A stretch of 64,000 nucleotides of DNA. It comes from a virus. The position numbers and the translations under genes were made by a program. Where the stretch lies: the IMG/VR virus record IMGVR_UViG_3300009314_000009, positions 1-64,000 of that record; one strand, written 5' to 3'. Position 1 is the first letter of the stretch. Every line of letters begins with the position of its first letter. This document shows positions 3,001-58,186 of this stretch, piece after piece. The notes beneath the pieces are model-generated. The model had not been told where the DNA came from and searched no databases. It saw nothing but the letters and a program-made list of their open reading frames with translations.

Positions 3001-3018
3001 TACTTATTATAAAAAGTT
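3001..3018 (-). promoter_or_regulatory. class B promoter
   Basis: Minus-strand AACTTTTTATAATAAGTA matches the recurrent box. The downstream leader carries the 2926-2972 hairpin. Confidence 0.55.
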
Positions 3019-4399: not shown

Positions 4400-4417
4400 T
4401 CTTATTATAAAAAGTTT
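4400..4417 (-). promoter_or_regulatory. class B promoter
   Basis: Minus-strand AAACTTTTTATAATAAG, 23 nt upstream of the 348-aa gene's start. Confidence 0.55.
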
Positions 4418-16932: not shown

Positions 16933-16950
16933 ATTTATTATAAAAAGTTC
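16933..16950 (-). promoter_or_regulatory. class B promoter
   Basis: Minus-strand GTGAACTTTTTATAATAAAT. It begins in the last codons of the GIY-YIG gene and directs the operon from 16918 downward. It also contains the AAAAAGTG/AACTTTTT half of the class A dyad. Confidence 0.55.
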
Positions 16951-17524
16951 ACTTTTTAAACACAAATTCCTTTTCAAATACTTGCTTAGATTTTTTTATT
17001 TGAGCGTTTTTTATCATTTTATTAATAAATTTATTTTTAGTTTTTTTCTTCATTCTGCCATTTTCCAAATCTTCTAATTGATCAAATAAATTATTAGCTC
17101 TCAAATATTGTTTTAACTTGCGCAAAGGGTCTTTTCTGATTTGAACCTTTTTAATTTCTTTATCTTTATGTATTTCAAAATTTTTCATCTCAGCTTTCAA
17201 TTTTAAGTAAGCCTTATGTTTGCCAGCAAATTTTAAATATTTAAGTGTTTTCTGTCCGTCACCTCCCAAAATCATATTTAAAACATTAGGATTTTCTAAA
17301 AATTTACGATCTACAATTGCTGCTTCGTAAGCATAAGCTTCAACTGATGTTTTAAATGTTGCTAAAATTTCTTTTTTAAATTTACTTGGAGCATATCGTT
17401 GTTGCAGATCTTTAATTAACAAACCACTACCCAAGCAGCCATCTTTCATGTTATTCGTGGAATATTTGCCCACATAAAATTGCCCAGTAGGCACAAAAAT
17501 AACCTTGTATACCATGTGAATCAT
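16949..17524 (-). CDS. GIY-YIG homing-endonuclease-like protein
   Basis: The nuclease domain begins almost at the proposed start: VYKVIFVPTGQFYVGKYS carries the degenerate GIY and YVG strands, followed by DGCLGSG, an A-Y-E-A catalytic-glutamate helix and an N-V-L-N-x5-G-G signature. The C-terminal ~90 residues are very basic and probably bind DNA. I set the start at ATG 17524. The open frame extends to 17608, but that extension only translates 15-bp tandem repeats as KKVTG units. Likely a selfish free-standing endonuclease beside a non-coding region. Confidence 0.75.
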   Translation of the reverse strand: MIHMVYKVIFVPTGQFYVGKYSTNNMKDGCLGSGLLIKDLQQRYAPSKFKKEILATFKTSVEAYAYEAAIVDRKFLENPNVLNMILGGDGQKTLKYLKFAGKHKAYLKLKAEMKNFEIHKDKEIKKVQIRKDPLRKLKQYLRANNLFDQLEDLENGRMKKKTKNKFINKMIKNAQIKKSKQVFEKEFVFKK

Positions 17525-17530
17525 TTCAAT

Positions 17531-17599
17531 ACCTGTTACCTTTTTACCTGTTACCTTTTTACCTGTTACCTTTTTACTTGTTACCTTTTTACTTGTTAT
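17531..17599. repeat. 15-bp tandem repeat, 4.6 copies
   Basis: Units ACCTGTTACCTTTTT at 17531, 17546 and 17561, then ACTTGTTACCTTTTT at 17576 and a partial copy from 17591. It lies immediately upstream of the GIY-YIG start. The core TTACCTTTTT matches elements upstream of the terminase gene. Confidence 0.85.
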
Positions 17600-18196
17600 C
17601 GCAGTCACTGGGCAGCATAGTTTCCCTAGACCTGTTGCGGTATAGGGAATATGACGCAGTGTACTGTTTCACATTATGTTCTGAATTGATTGGATATACC
17701 GCGAGCCTTTTTACACACTTCACACTCTACAATTCAGCCTATCCAAATAAATCTGGAATGGGGTCGTGTTGCTGAAATTTCGACAGATAAACTTTTACAT
17801 AAATGTACTTCAAGCCTTCAGCGCAAGTATCGGGGGCCTGTCTGAAACTGCTCCCCCATGAGCTATTGAACAAAGTTTAAGATCCAATAACCCACAAATT
17901 ACTATTCAAGCCCCTTTCAGTTGCCTTCAGAGGTTGTAATTCAATTGAAACTGGTATTTCAGGCCCCAGTTTTTAATAGGCGTATAGCGTGCAATCTGGC
18001 TATCGGTGGAATAAAAAGAGCTGTCACGGGTTTCGTTTCAGTTCTTTCTTCTTCTCGTTCCCTATGCTTATTTTTCCTAATGAAGGGGTGGAGATCACCC
18101 CGGAACAAAAAGAAAAAAGTAAGCATTATTGCCGGTAGCTACTCCGACTGCTTATATATATTATATAAATTTATTTACAAAAGTAGCAATTTTTTA
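17600..18196. other. ~600-bp non-coding, hairpin-rich region (candidate large ncRNA)
   Basis: No credible gene on either strand; the few open frames lack ribosome binding sites and recognisable sequence. It contains several strong inverted repeats: 17602-17610 with 17657-17666 enclosing 17622-17628 with 17643-17649; TTGGATA 17690-17696 with 17740-17746; GAATTG 17683-17688 with 17730-17735, which crosses the previous pair; GGGGG/CCCCC near 17832-17857; 17948-17954 with 17966-17972; and GGGGTG/CACCCC at 18084-18100. This density in an otherwise gapless genome suggests a structured RNA or an origin. Confidence 0.5.
17948..17975 (+). terminator. terminator-like hairpin, plus strand
   Basis: Seven-bp stem AAACTGG/CCAGTTT with an 11-nt loop followed by TTTTT. 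No plus-strand gene precedes it, so if active it would end an RNA made from the non-coding region. Confidence 0.4.
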
Positions 18197-18271
18197 TTAC
18201 ATATCTCTTAATTTGTAAAAAGCTTTGAGTTTTTTGCCTGTTTCACTTGATTTTTTAACTTTGTGATACAT
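18197..18271 (-). CDS. 24-aa basic peptide ORF
   Basis: ATG 18271 with AGGAGGG 4 nt upstream, just after the sigma-like gene stop. Lys-rich (MYHKVKKSS start). Retained only because of the strong ribosome binding site; it may be a leader peptide. Confidence 0.35.
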   Translation of the reverse strand: MYHKVKKSSETGKKLKAFYKLRDM

Positions 18272-18279
18272 GTTCCCTC

Positions 18280-18894
18280 CTACAATTTATTATACGAATA
18301 ACAAAGTGCTACTGGGTCCTGTTCTGCGTCAAATTTTTCATAAATAAAATAACGCAAATCTCCAAGAGCTCTTTGGAGTCTCTTTTTGTCCCAGCCCCAT
18401 TCGCTAACTATGTTGAGTAAGTTATCAATAGTGAGCCGCAATTGACGACCTAAAGCTGTTACAAGGTTCCCCGATACTATAACACTGTATATTTTTTTAG
18501 CATCTTCTGACAGCTCCGAATAGGCTATATTCAAATCTATGTTTTCTGCGTTGTCAAAAGCTTCCCCGCGATCTTCCTGGCTTGCGTGACCATCATGGAG
18601 TCCAGATCCTGAGTCTTTACTGCGGTCATCCCTTACCAATTTGAATTTATATGCCTTATCTTGAAATTTATACCAGTAACGGTAATGTAATTTTTTCAAG
18701 TGGGTCCAAAGAACAGTTCCAAAATTAGCACCTTTTTCTGGATCAAAAACTTCCAAAGCTTCGTAAAAAATTAAAGAGCCCTCTTGGAAAAGATCTTCAT
18801 ATTGATCGGCTGGTGCTTTCAATGTATGTATGGCTTTATGTATCATATTTTTATAACATTTGCCGCCATATGTATATGGTTTCTGTTTATTCAC
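18280..18894 (-). CDS. third sigma-factor-like protein (204 aa)
   Basis: GTG 18894 has GGAGG 5 nt upstream and overlaps the preceding stop, so it is preferred to the ATG at 18924. Residues ~28-75 resemble sigma region 2 (EDLFQEGSLIFYEALEVFDP, then an FGTVLWTHLKKLHYRY helix). The C-terminal half is helical and weakly like region 4. Spacing is closer to ECF or phage sigma proteins such as T4 gp55-type factors than to RpoD. Transcribed from a class A-like promoter with the zinc-ribbon gene. Confidence 0.65.
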   Translation of the reverse strand: MNKQKPYTYGGKCYKNMIHKAIHTLKAPADQYEDLFQEGSLIFYEALEVFDPEKGANFGTVLWTHLKKLHYRYWYKFQDKAYKFKLVRDDRSKDSGSGLHDGHASQEDRGEAFDNAENIDLNIAYSELSEDAKKIYSVIVSGNLVTALGRQLRLTIDNLLNIVSEWGWDKKRLQRALGDLRYFIYEKFDAEQDPVALCYSYNKL

Positions 18895-29230: not shown

Positions 29231-29733
29231 ATATCGTAAAATTTTTAAATAAAGAAGAGTTGGAAGAGCAAAAAGATAAAAGCGAACCACTTAAAAGATG
29301 GAAAAAGGCTGTTTTACCTAATAATGAATTAATTGAAGAATTCACACATCAAAATTTTAAATTCTTTTTGCGTAAATTCAAAGACCACACATATATGGTA
29401 TATGAAAAAACATCAGGAATGTCAATAGGTACTTACCACAATGACAGGGAATCTTGTATGAAAACTCAAAAAGTTTTTATTGATCAAAAAATCGAACAAG
29501 GTATTCTTCCGCAAACTGTAAAAAATAGAATTAAAGAACGGGGATTTATCAACGGGGATGAAAATGATTTACCTTTTTCTTTGGAAGAAGAAGAAAAAAT
29601 TGAAGCTTCACAAACTGATCTTTTTATAATAAATAAAGAACAAAAGCCTTCCAATGAGAAAAAAGCTGAACAAACAGTAAAGGTGTTGACTAAAAAGTCT
29701 ACAACACAGAGTACCGGTGGAGGGCTTTTCTGA
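29227..29733 (+). CDS. hypothetical protein with clamp-binding-like motif (168 aa)
   Basis: Overlaps the polymerase stop as ATGA. The N-terminal part is mixed alpha/beta; the C-terminal ~60 residues are Lys/Glu/Thr-rich and probably disordered. It contains QTDLF, a good fit to the bacterial beta-clamp consensus Q-x-[SD]-L-F, and ends GGGLF. With a DnaN-like clamp encoded two genes upstream, a replisome-tethered accessory protein is plausible (inference). Confidence 0.6.
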   Translation: MNIVKFLNKEELEEQKDKSEPLKRWKKAVLPNNELIEEFTHQNFKFFLRKFKDHTYMVYEKTSGMSIGTYHNDRESCMKTQKVFIDQKIEQGILPQTVKNRIKERGFINGDENDLPFSLEEEEKIEASQTDLFIINKEQKPSNEKKAEQTVKVLTKKSTTQSTGGGLF

Positions 29734-31686: not shown

Positions 31687-31717
31687 AAAAAGGGGTCACT
31701 TTGTCCCCTTTCTTTTT
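31687..31717 (+). terminator. Rho-independent terminator after clamp loader
   Basis: AAGGGG (31690-31695) pairs with CCCCTT (31705-31710), followed by TCTTTTT, which runs straight into the next promoter. An ATATTTTTTAAAAAATAT palindrome precedes it at 31665-31682. Confidence 0.7.
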
Positions 31718-31728
31718 ATAATAAGTTT
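31712..31728 (+). promoter_or_regulatory. class B promoter
   Basis: CTTTTTATAATAAGTTT, 18 nt upstream of the 246-aa gene, shares its T-run with the preceding terminator. Confidence 0.55.
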
Positions 31729-34061: not shown

Positions 34062-35218
34062 CAAAGAAAAATGAAAAGAAAGCTCAATTGGATGACATTG
34101 ATGAAGTGTATGAAGATGACACCTTTCTACACTTGTACAAAGTTCATGACCCGTGGGGCCGTATGCGTACTGGATGTTTGCTTCATGATCTACAAGCTGG
34201 GGGCAGCAAAGGTATTTTAGGGTATCCTTTAGGTTGGATGGTTAATTTTGTTGGGGGCAGTTCTTCTGGGAAAACTTTAGCAGCCCATGAATTAACCGGT
34301 TATGAATATAATCAAGATAAAAAAATGAAACCTTGTTACATACCTACAGAATATGGAGACAGTTTTGATACTGAAAAAATGTATGGTTTTGATGCCACTA
34401 TAGATCCTGAAGACATTCCAAAAACTGTTCAGGAAGCTGACGCATTTATGACACAACATGTACACTCTTTGGCTGATCCTAATAAAAAAGAAAATGTATC
34501 AAAAAATGTGATCATTCTCGATTCTTTAGATGGTTTGCGTTCTAATCAAACCATTGATATGCAAGATGAAAGAGTGGATCAATACAGAAAAGGAAAAGAA
34601 GTAAAAGACAAAGGAAGTTATCAAGCACAAAAAGCTTGTTTTTTATCACAACATTTTTTCCCTAATCAAGCTTGTAATTTACGACACAAAAAAGCTTCTT
34701 TGATTATTATTTCCCAAGTCAGAGATAATATGAGTGTTACGTCTTTTGAAACAGAAAAACGTAATGGTGGCAGAGCCATGGATTTTTATTGCCATACTGT
34801 ACAATGGTTTTACCAAGTACAAAAACTTTACGCAACAGGGAAAGCTGAAAAAGAAGGCAGAGCAGCCGGGGCTATAATGAGGGTAAAAAACAAAAAATCA
34901 AAAACTCCAAGGCCTGGCAGAATCATTAACATACTTCTATATTTTAATTTTGGAGTAGATGATGTTGGAACCAGTTTGTTATTTCTTTATGATCTTCTTA
35001 CTGAAAAAGGTAGAATGACTTGTAAAAATTATGATATAGAATGGGATGGGGAAGAAACAACATTTCTTGATTTGCGTGATCGCATTTATGGAGAATGTCA
35101 AAATGGTAATTATGCAAACCGGAAAAAACTTGATCAATTAGTTATTGAGAAATGGGAAGATGCTGAGCAAAACAGTATTAAGTTTACTCCCGGTGGTGGC
35201 TCTTTTTCAAAATATTGA
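34058..35218 (+). CDS. RecA/UvsX-like recombinase (386 aa)
   Basis: Walker A GGSSSGKT at ~66-73, Walker B VIILDSLD at 151-158, and the L2-proximal region with SLIIISQVRDN (sensor Gln) identify a RecA-fold strand-exchange protein. The spacing and R-N-G-G-R-A-M-D-F segment recall UvsX. It would drive recombination-dependent replication and repair with the SSB, RuvC and SbcCD proteins of this operon. Confidence 0.85.
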   Translation: MTKKNEKKAQLDDIDEVYEDDTFLHLYKVHDPWGRMRTGCLLHDLQAGGSKGILGYPLGWMVNFVGGSSSGKTLAAHELTGYEYNQDKKMKPCYIPTEYGDSFDTEKMYGFDATIDPEDIPKTVQEADAFMTQHVHSLADPNKKENVSKNVIILDSLDGLRSNQTIDMQDERVDQYRKGKEVKDKGSYQAQKACFLSQHFFPNQACNLRHKKASLIIISQVRDNMSVTSFETEKRNGGRAMDFYCHTVQWFYQVQKLYATGKAEKEGRAAGAIMRVKNKKSKTPRPGRIINILLYFNFGVDDVGTSLLFLYDLLTEKGRMTCKNYDIEWDGEETTFLDLRDRIYGECQNGNYANRKKLDQLVIEKWEDAEQNSIKFTPGGGSFSKY

Positions 35219-35224
35219 GGATGT

Positions 35225-35708
35225 TATGCGTATTTTAGGTGTTGATTATGGTACTAATGGAGCTTTTGCTTTAATAGATACTGAAACTGAGGAACATGAA
35301 ATTTGGGATATGCCGTTGGAAGATGGTGAAATTGATGTTGTAAAAGTTGGTGAAATCCTTGATAAAAGAGATTGGTGCCTTGATGTTATTTGGATTGAAC
35401 ATGTAATTGCCAATGGGCCCAACGCTGGTAAAAAAGGTTTACTTAAACAAGGTAAAAATATTGGCAAAGCTGAAGCCATGTTAATTTTATTTTCCAATAA
35501 GTATAATTGGCCTATGAAAGATGTAAGTGGTCAACGTTGGACAAGATTCCAAGGGCTCTGGGGCAAAGATAAAAAGAATCACGTGCTAAAAGCAATTGAA
35601 AAATATCCTATGTTAAAATCATTGATGTACGGGCCTAAAGGAGGTCCAAAAGATGGGAGAGCTGACGCACTTTTAATAGCTGATTACGGGAGATATAACA
35701 ATGAGTAA
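35225..35708 (+). CDS. RuvC-like Holliday junction resolvase (160 aa)
   Basis: Start at ATG 35225 (GAGGATGTT upstream) instead of the longer frame. It has the RNase H-fold acidic residues Asp7 (GVDYGTNGA), Glu58 (WIEHV) and a C-terminal D-G-R-A-D-A helix near 143-147, the order of RuvC and related phage resolvases. It should resolve branched DNA before packaging. Confidence 0.85.
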
Positions 35709-35886
35709 TCCAACTGAATACGATAAATGTCTAAGATGTGGGAGACCTCTTAAAACAAAGGAAAGTCGCGTACACGGTTATGGCGCTGTTTGTCTGAAAA
35801 AAAGACAAGAACTTGAAATTACCCCAGGCACTCAATTGAATAATACTTTTGAGGACGGATCTGAAAAGGAGGTTCCCAATGAATAA
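35701..35886 (+). CDS. small zinc-finger protein, DUF6011-like (61 aa)
   Basis: C-L-R-C-G-R-P-L, then S-R-V-H-G-Y-G-A-V-C: a treble-clef-like small zinc finger seen widely in phage and actinobacterial proteins. Overlaps the resolvase stop by 8 nt. Probable nucleic-acid binder. Confidence 0.65.
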   Translation: MSNPTEYDKCLRCGRPLKTKESRVHGYGAVCLKKRQELEITPGTQLNNTFEDGSEKEVPNE

Positions 35887-35989
35887 AGGTGAATTTAAGA
35901 TTCTTTTATTTTCTTTAATTGGTGATGATTTCAATTATAAAAACGTCACCAAAGCATTTGGTACTCACTATAGAAAAAGGTTCTCATAA
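35879..35989 (+). CDS. small ORF (36 aa)
   Basis: ATG 35879 with AAGGAGG upstream; its TAA overlaps the next ATG (TAATG). Mixed sequence ending in basic residues, no family. Kept for its ribosome binding site and tight coupling on both sides. Confidence 0.5.
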   Translation: MNKGEFKILLFSLIGDDFNYKNVTKAFGTHYRKRFS

Positions 35990-56881: not shown

Positions 56882-57549
56882 AAAGACATACTCCCAGTAC
56901 TCATCATACCAAAATTGGAGGTGCTTTTGAGCGATATCAAAGACACACCATAACGGGTTCTTGATAAATCGGCTTTTACTTCAGACCATTTATTATTTAT
57001 GTCTGAAGTGGCTCCATAAGTGATAGCCAGATCACCTTGTTTCACAGCTTTTACAGAACCGTTACCGACACTCGCGGTGTCATTTATATCTTCTGTAACC
57101 TGGGCATCTAAAGTCATTAAATGAGCAGTTCTAAGGGCCAGAGCATAATCATAATTACCTCTGAACCAAACAGAACTGATTAAAGTTTTAGCAAGAGCCA
57201 AAAAGGCATCCCGCAAAAAGGTATCTACTTCACCAATTGTCACAACAGCTTGCGAAGCACCACCAGTTACAGTGGCGCTTAGTAAGATTTCAAGACGTAC
57301 GGTGGTTACAGTTATCACCAATCCAGAACGCTCCGCAGATCCAACATAAGGGAGCGCAATTAGATTAGTAACAAGTTGATCCAAAGTGTCATCGGAGCTT
57401 CCAGAATAAGTGGCAGCAGCAGTTTGCCCGTTTACTGTAACTGAAATAACATTACCTGTTATTAAAGCAGTATCTAAACTGAGCCAGTTGGTTCTTACGT
57501 TAAACTGTGGCGCAATTAATTGTAAACGTTCAGTTGCTGTAGCCATCAT
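56878..57549 (-). CDS. head-tail connector, DUF4054-like, with beta insertion (223 aa)
   Basis: N- and C-terminal parts are helical as in DUF4054 adaptors (A-L-R-T-A-H-L-M-T-L helix, a G-D-L-A-I-T-Y region). Residues ~28-105 form an inserted beta module starting NVISVTVNGQTAAA, followed by a L-D-Q-L-V-T-N-L helix and L-V-I-T-V. The same kind of module is in three other virion proteins. Confidence 0.6.
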   Translation of the reverse strand: MMATATERLQLIAPQFNVRTNWLSLDTALITGNVISVTVNGQTAAATYSGSSDDTLDQLVTNLIALPYVGSAERSGLVITVTTVRLEILLSATVTGGASQAVVTIGEVDTFLRDAFLALAKTLISSVWFRGNYDYALALRTAHLMTLDAQVTEDINDTASVGNGSVKAVKQGDLAITYGATSDINNKWSEVKADLSRTRYGVSLISLKSTSNFGMMSTGSMSL

Positions 57550-57556
57550 TTATCCT

Positions 57557-58186
57557 TTAGTCATCCAAATCGCTTTTGGGACCTTTGTAATCATTAATAG
57601 CTTTTTCCTGTTCAAATACCAAAGCTTTGTAAGAATCTTTTTTGAGATTCTTTTTCCAGCTTTTAAGAGTATCAGGGTTGAAGGTATCTTTAATGATTTC
57701 TTCAACCTGTTCGGCATCCAATGATTCCAATTTCTTAATAGAAATTTTCACATTGGGTCTGCCTCCCATACTCTTCATATAAGCAGCATATGCTTTTAAT
57801 CTGACATCTTCATCAGAAGCCTTTACGCGGAATACACGCAAATTACCGGCAACTTTTTGAACATCTTCAGAAAGAGTAACTAAATAATGACCACCTGCTT
57901 CAGGTTTTATACCTAATTCCCCGGGAGCAATAGCATCGCAAAATTCATCCAAAGACAAATATTTAGAAAGCTCCTGAGTTGTGGGCTCTTTTATTTCTTT
58001 CACGTTCACTTCTTCCAGCACTCGTTTTCGTATGTAATACTGAACAACTGCTAGTTTCCGCAAACTTTCCCAAACTTCAACTGGGAGCTCGTTATGTCCC
58101 GCATAAAGTTTGTACTCTTTCTTTTTATGGGAAAGGCCAATCAGGCCGTTCCCTTTTTTTCTGTTTATGATTATTATATTATCCAT
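57557..58186 (-). CDS. hypothetical head-region protein (209 aa)
   Basis: Mixed protein; residues 1-35 are beta-rich, the rest helical and charged. It follows the major capsid gene, where a head-completion or head-tail joining factor would be expected. AAAGGATGG upstream of the ATG. No family recognised. Confidence 0.55.
   Translation of the reverse strand: MDNIIIINRKKGNGLIGLSHKKKEYKLYAGHNELPVEVWESLRKLAVVQYYIRKRVLEEVNVKEIKEPTTQELSKYLSLDEFCDAIAPGELGIKPEAGGHYLVTLSEDVQKVAGNLRVFRVKASDEDVRLKAYAAYMKSMGGRPNVKISIKKLESLDAEQVEEIIKDTFNPDTLKSWKKNLKKDSYKALVFEQEKAINDYKGPKSDLDD

Follow-up and report, generated by a model that had tools for sequence, protein, structure and literature searches.

The locus and its counterparts in related phages

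The window, by which we mean the whole 64.0-kb stretch of DNA analyzed out of a 68.0-kb virus record, has its largest true gene gap at 17608-18280 (672 bp in a crude ORF layout), among minus-strand genes that continue as far as about 19.8 kb. A longer gap, 35218-35989, appears in the list limited to ORFs of at least 100 aa, and a 187-aa ORF takes up part of it. The first-pass annotation described the region as gene-free, which is correct in that it is the largest true gap but not at its margins, as a GIY-YIG ORF occupies the left edge with its N-terminus and the minus strand carries a 24-codon ORF at 18271-18197. Most of the gap is occupied by a conserved structured RNA of about 543 nt (17615-18157, minus strand; ends approximate), delimited by synteny, a consensus fold and compensatory changes and extending from helix P1 to just after helix P12. 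The G+C content is 0.42 in the RNA region versus 0.36 in its surroundings in the window, and the RNA sits inside a cluster of phage regulation and replication genes.

The 24-codon ORF (translation MYHKVKKSSETGKKLKAFYKLRDM) is a remnant of a gene that encodes 181-182 aa in related phages; it keeps a good ribosome-binding site and ends just short of the promoter-like site of the RNA. Directly after the RNA is a 660-bp ORF for a GIY-YIG-type homing endonuclease (16949-17608, minus strand; phrog_314, E 9.6e-21), the true start of which is probably near 17530, with its repeat-rich N-terminus forming the left edge of the gap. At the start of this ORF, 17530-17604 is built of 15-bp units (TACCTGTTACCTTTT), four to five in tandem; read on the minus strand these repeat AAAAGGTAACAGGTA, so instead of encoding protein the stretch may be a leader with reiterated ribosome-binding sequence.

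A search with the primase led to two IMG/VR phages, L002 (65% identical) and L003 (63% identical), that share the gene order sigma factor, a 181-182-aa gene, a gap of 600-700 nt, a 69-70-aa gene, primase, and helicase. Their gaps align with that of the window, and the syntenic homologous stretches (L002:4831-5382 and L003:4431-4980) are 552 and 550 nt long, compared to 543 nt in the window. The window has retained the RNA although both neighboring genes have changed. Sequence, position, strand, and pairing are all conserved.

The endonuclease gene raises the question of a self-splicing intron, or the remnant of one, carried together with its homing endonuclease. This origin is very improbable: models of group I and group II introns gave no match even at E <= 10, and in both relatives the endonuclease is absent from the corresponding place and the flanking genes are complete, without a split frame, which argues against an intron.

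In the phage, plasmid, IMG/VR and prokaryote collections we found no further homolog beyond L002 and L003. Searches with blastn against phages and against plasmids returned no real homolog; DNA motif scans of IMG/VR recovered L002 and L003 plus 15 contigs without homology to the RNA; and scanning 84,980 prokaryote genomes twice gave 0 and 13 matches, approximately the number estimated by chance, with no homology past the motif by blastn or by model. With three members found, the RNA is rare in the collections searched. In a more distant phage with a 34%-identical primase (L008), ORFs tile the region before the primase and no RNA is found there; directly before that primase is a 345-aa ORF (1606-2643) with a GIY-YIG-like beginning.

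Conserved helices and strand asymmetry

Folded as a single sequence, the minus strand of 17580-18200 reaches -179 kcal/mol (z -6.35 relative to dinucleotide shuffles), while the plus strand reaches -154 (z -1.25). The inverted-repeat stems that had been proposed from the window sequence are therefore real, and the minus strand is now favored where the earlier proposal had named no strand. Single folds prefer the sense strand in all three phages, albeit weakly in the two relatives, whose folds are just mildly more stable than shuffles (z -2.3 and -1.5). In a scan of the genome by 300-nt windows the region ranks high in folding without being unique; consequently, energy alone is no proof of structure, whereas comparison with the relatives is. 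The strongest local fold of the scan is elsewhere, at 57501-57800, where it spans the junction of two minus-strand genes, with z of about -6 on one strand and about -5 on the other.

The comparison of the three phages provides this proof in several forms. RNAalifold applied to the three-way alignment gives -309 on the sense strand, compared with -238.5 +/- 7.4 in column shuffles preserving gaps and conservation (z -9.5); on the antisense strand the value is -277 (z -5.7). An unsupervised search for helices of five pairs, present in all three phages and with at least two double changes, returned 46, against 5-18 in shuffles. By hand, after the data had been seen and from an alignment of three sequences, we curated 13 helices (P1-P12 plus P5a) comprising 76 pairs, of which 26 show double compensatory changes and 38 are invariant, with eight nonstandard cells. 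P8 and P9, which are uncertain in register, contribute 10 of the 26 double changes; without them the count is 16 of 66 pairs. The compensatory changes among relatives that the first-pass annotation had looked to as a check are thus present.

The helices are organized around a strongly conserved core. The 5' domain (18120-18154) is composed of P1 (18154-18149 with 18125-18120) and P2 (18148-18144 with 18135-18131) and is supported by covariation: in a sub-alignment analyzed with a counting tool, 6 of 11 pairs change on both sides, compared to 0-2 in slid versions. P3 (18085-18101) is a G+C-rich hairpin with one compensatory pair, the others being invariant. The core itself (P4-P7; 17821-17986) contains P4 (17972-17966 with 17954-17948), P5, P6 (17893-17885 with 17868-17860), and P7 (17857-17853 with 17836-17832). 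The same counting procedure found changes on both sides in 5 of 29 core pairs (0-1 in slid versions), and a covariance model of the core built from L002 and L003 only assigned the window copy 130.4 bits, a score much of which comes from primary sequence, with no nonstandard pair flagged. The variable helices P8 and P9 (17742-17822) retain their stems while the sequence differs in each phage; in L002 and L003 a GCAA tetraloop caps P9, as read from the sequences. In the 3' domain (17625-17737), formed by P10 (17737-17730 with 17688-17681) and P12 (17646-17640 with 17631-17625), the counting tool found double changes in two of the eight P10 pairs, with every cell paired, in an alignment that places P12 wrongly in L003. 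P11 exists in L002 and L003 only, with covariation between the two; the window lacks it. A possible long-range contact pairs GCAACC, ahead of P5, with GGUUGU in the loop of P10; both relatives have it in full and the window in part. All helices that the window has are on its minus strand.

The region was also considered as a candidate protein-coding sequence. Translated comparisons with tblastx matched on both strands and in several frames, substitutions in the core are without a three-base rhythm, and the three phages share no frame, so a protein reading was dropped.

The same data bear on whether the inverted repeats act as DNA, in a replication origin or a packaging site, as the gene-free character of the region, its position adjoining the primase and helicase genes and its proximity to the cumulative GC-skew minimum (about 18-20 kb) might suggest. 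GC skew tracks gene direction here, however, and wobble pairs exceed A-C mismatches in the curated helices, as expected for RNA. Pairing is strand-asymmetric both in the single folds and in the consensus fold and there is no direct-repeat array inside the conserved part, which together argue against an origin; we regard a DNA element as improbable. The features of a large structured phage noncoding RNA are present instead: the region is noncoding, several hundred nucleotides long, and conserved in structure by compensatory changes. The first-pass annotation's suggestion of such an RNA is borne out by synteny, covariation, strand asymmetry, and the absence of a conserved reading frame.

Relation to known large RNAs

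Few large phage RNAs are known; those with solved structures are RNA-only cages, the purpose of which is open (PMC12286853). Among them, GOLLD and ROOL are found in phages or prophages, often near tRNA islands, and form RNA nanocages (PMC12286853). A scan of the window, L002, and L003 with 4227 Rfam families, at gathering and permissive thresholds, gave no credible match, nor did the covariance models of GOLLD, ROOL and OLE match the window or its relatives at either threshold. No tRNA is found within the window or in the 17-18 kb around either relative. The comparison with GOLLD and ROOL made in the first-pass annotation is apt as to kind, but the lack of a covariance-model match and of nearby tRNAs indicates that the RNA belongs to neither family.

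The RNA resembles ROOL in being a large, multi-helix RNA from phages and prophages with no known function (PMC12286853); it differs in having no Rfam match, no tRNAs in the window and, by model search, no ROOL nucleotide motifs. Like GOLLD, a large phage or prophage RNA, it combines a strongly conserved domain with variable parts (PMC12286853). GOLLD, however, is often longer than 800 nt and near tRNAs, whereas this RNA is about 540 nt, without tRNAs and without a model match, and its conservation peaks in a central domain, not in the 3' region. OLE is similar in length (~600 nt), with an intricate secondary structure and highly conserved stretches, but it comes from bacteria, namely Gram-positive extremophiles and anaerobes, where it functions in a protein complex (PMC9723947), and its model finds no match here. 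Most likely the RNA represents a new family within the large phage-RNA kind. That this unrelated family would, as a large ornate RNA, work during infection as an RNA-only or RNA-protein assembly is a more tentative suggestion, to which we give somewhat less than an even chance.

Promoter-like sites and the proposed mode of action

A sigma-70-like promoter sequence, TTGCTA-18-TATAAT (18160-18189, minus strand; 10 of 12 consensus positions), ends 6 nt before P1. In the same place L003 has GTAACA-17-TATACT and L002 has TATATT, the latter with no -35 match. Because promoter-like sites are about as frequent in these regions as chance predicts, it is their shared position that provides support. We found no intrinsic terminator 3' of the RNA. 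The hairpin at 17948-17975, previously proposed as terminator-like, is helix P4, the stem of which (17948-17972) is identical in all three phages, and was dropped as a terminator candidate; P4 has a T-run after it only when the plus strand is read, the strand opposite the RNA, and so probably does not terminate transcription of the RNA.

Since the RNA is always upstream of, and on the same strand as, the 69-aa and primase genes, it could alternatively be a cis-regulatory leader (5' UTR) of very large size whose folding controls the downstream 69-aa protein, primase, and helicase genes. At about 540 nt, such a leader would be of unusual length. Moreover, in all three phages the 69-aa gene (its window version encodes 67 aa) is preceded by its own conserved promoter-like motif, CTTTTTATAATA (16936-16947, minus strand), and in the window this gene is separated from the RNA by the 660-bp endonuclease ORF. 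The separate motif and the intervening gene argue against a cis leader, which we consider unlikely, though less so than a DNA element or an intron.

We instead favor, with reasonable confidence, a stand-alone, noncoding, multidomain RNA of about 540 nt that would be produced from its own sigma-70-type promoter on the minus strand and would be trans-acting or serve as a scaffold. Predicted transcription starts from the promoter at 18189-18160, and the RNA would then adopt a fold of about twelve conserved helices arranged around the core P4-P7; we infer both that it is transcribed and where exactly it ends. Trans action is likewise inferred: by analogy with other large phage RNAs, the folded molecule would most likely be a protein-binding scaffold or a self-assembling RNA. 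An independent family in another setting, without tRNAs and beside sigma factor and primase genes, would offer a separate test of the purpose of large phage RNAs, and a defined molecule of about 540 nt lends itself to in vitro synthesis and probing.

The motif CTTTTTATAATA is not confined to this locus. Allowing up to two mismatches, it occurs 71 times in the window versus 31 expected, and there are six exact copies, at 1549-1560, 3005-3016, 4403-4414, and 16936-16947 on the minus strand and at 29620-29631 and 31712-31723 on the plus strand. Those at 4414, 1560, 16947, and 31712 are 15-45 nt ahead of a start codon, and a hairpin-like stretch precedes the copies at 1560 and 31712. In the relatives the motif is found before the 69-aa gene of both L002 and L003 and also before the helicase gene of L003. 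The motif resembles a phage promoter consisting of a -10 element only, which the sigma-like protein encoded by the phage itself (18283-18924) may recognize.
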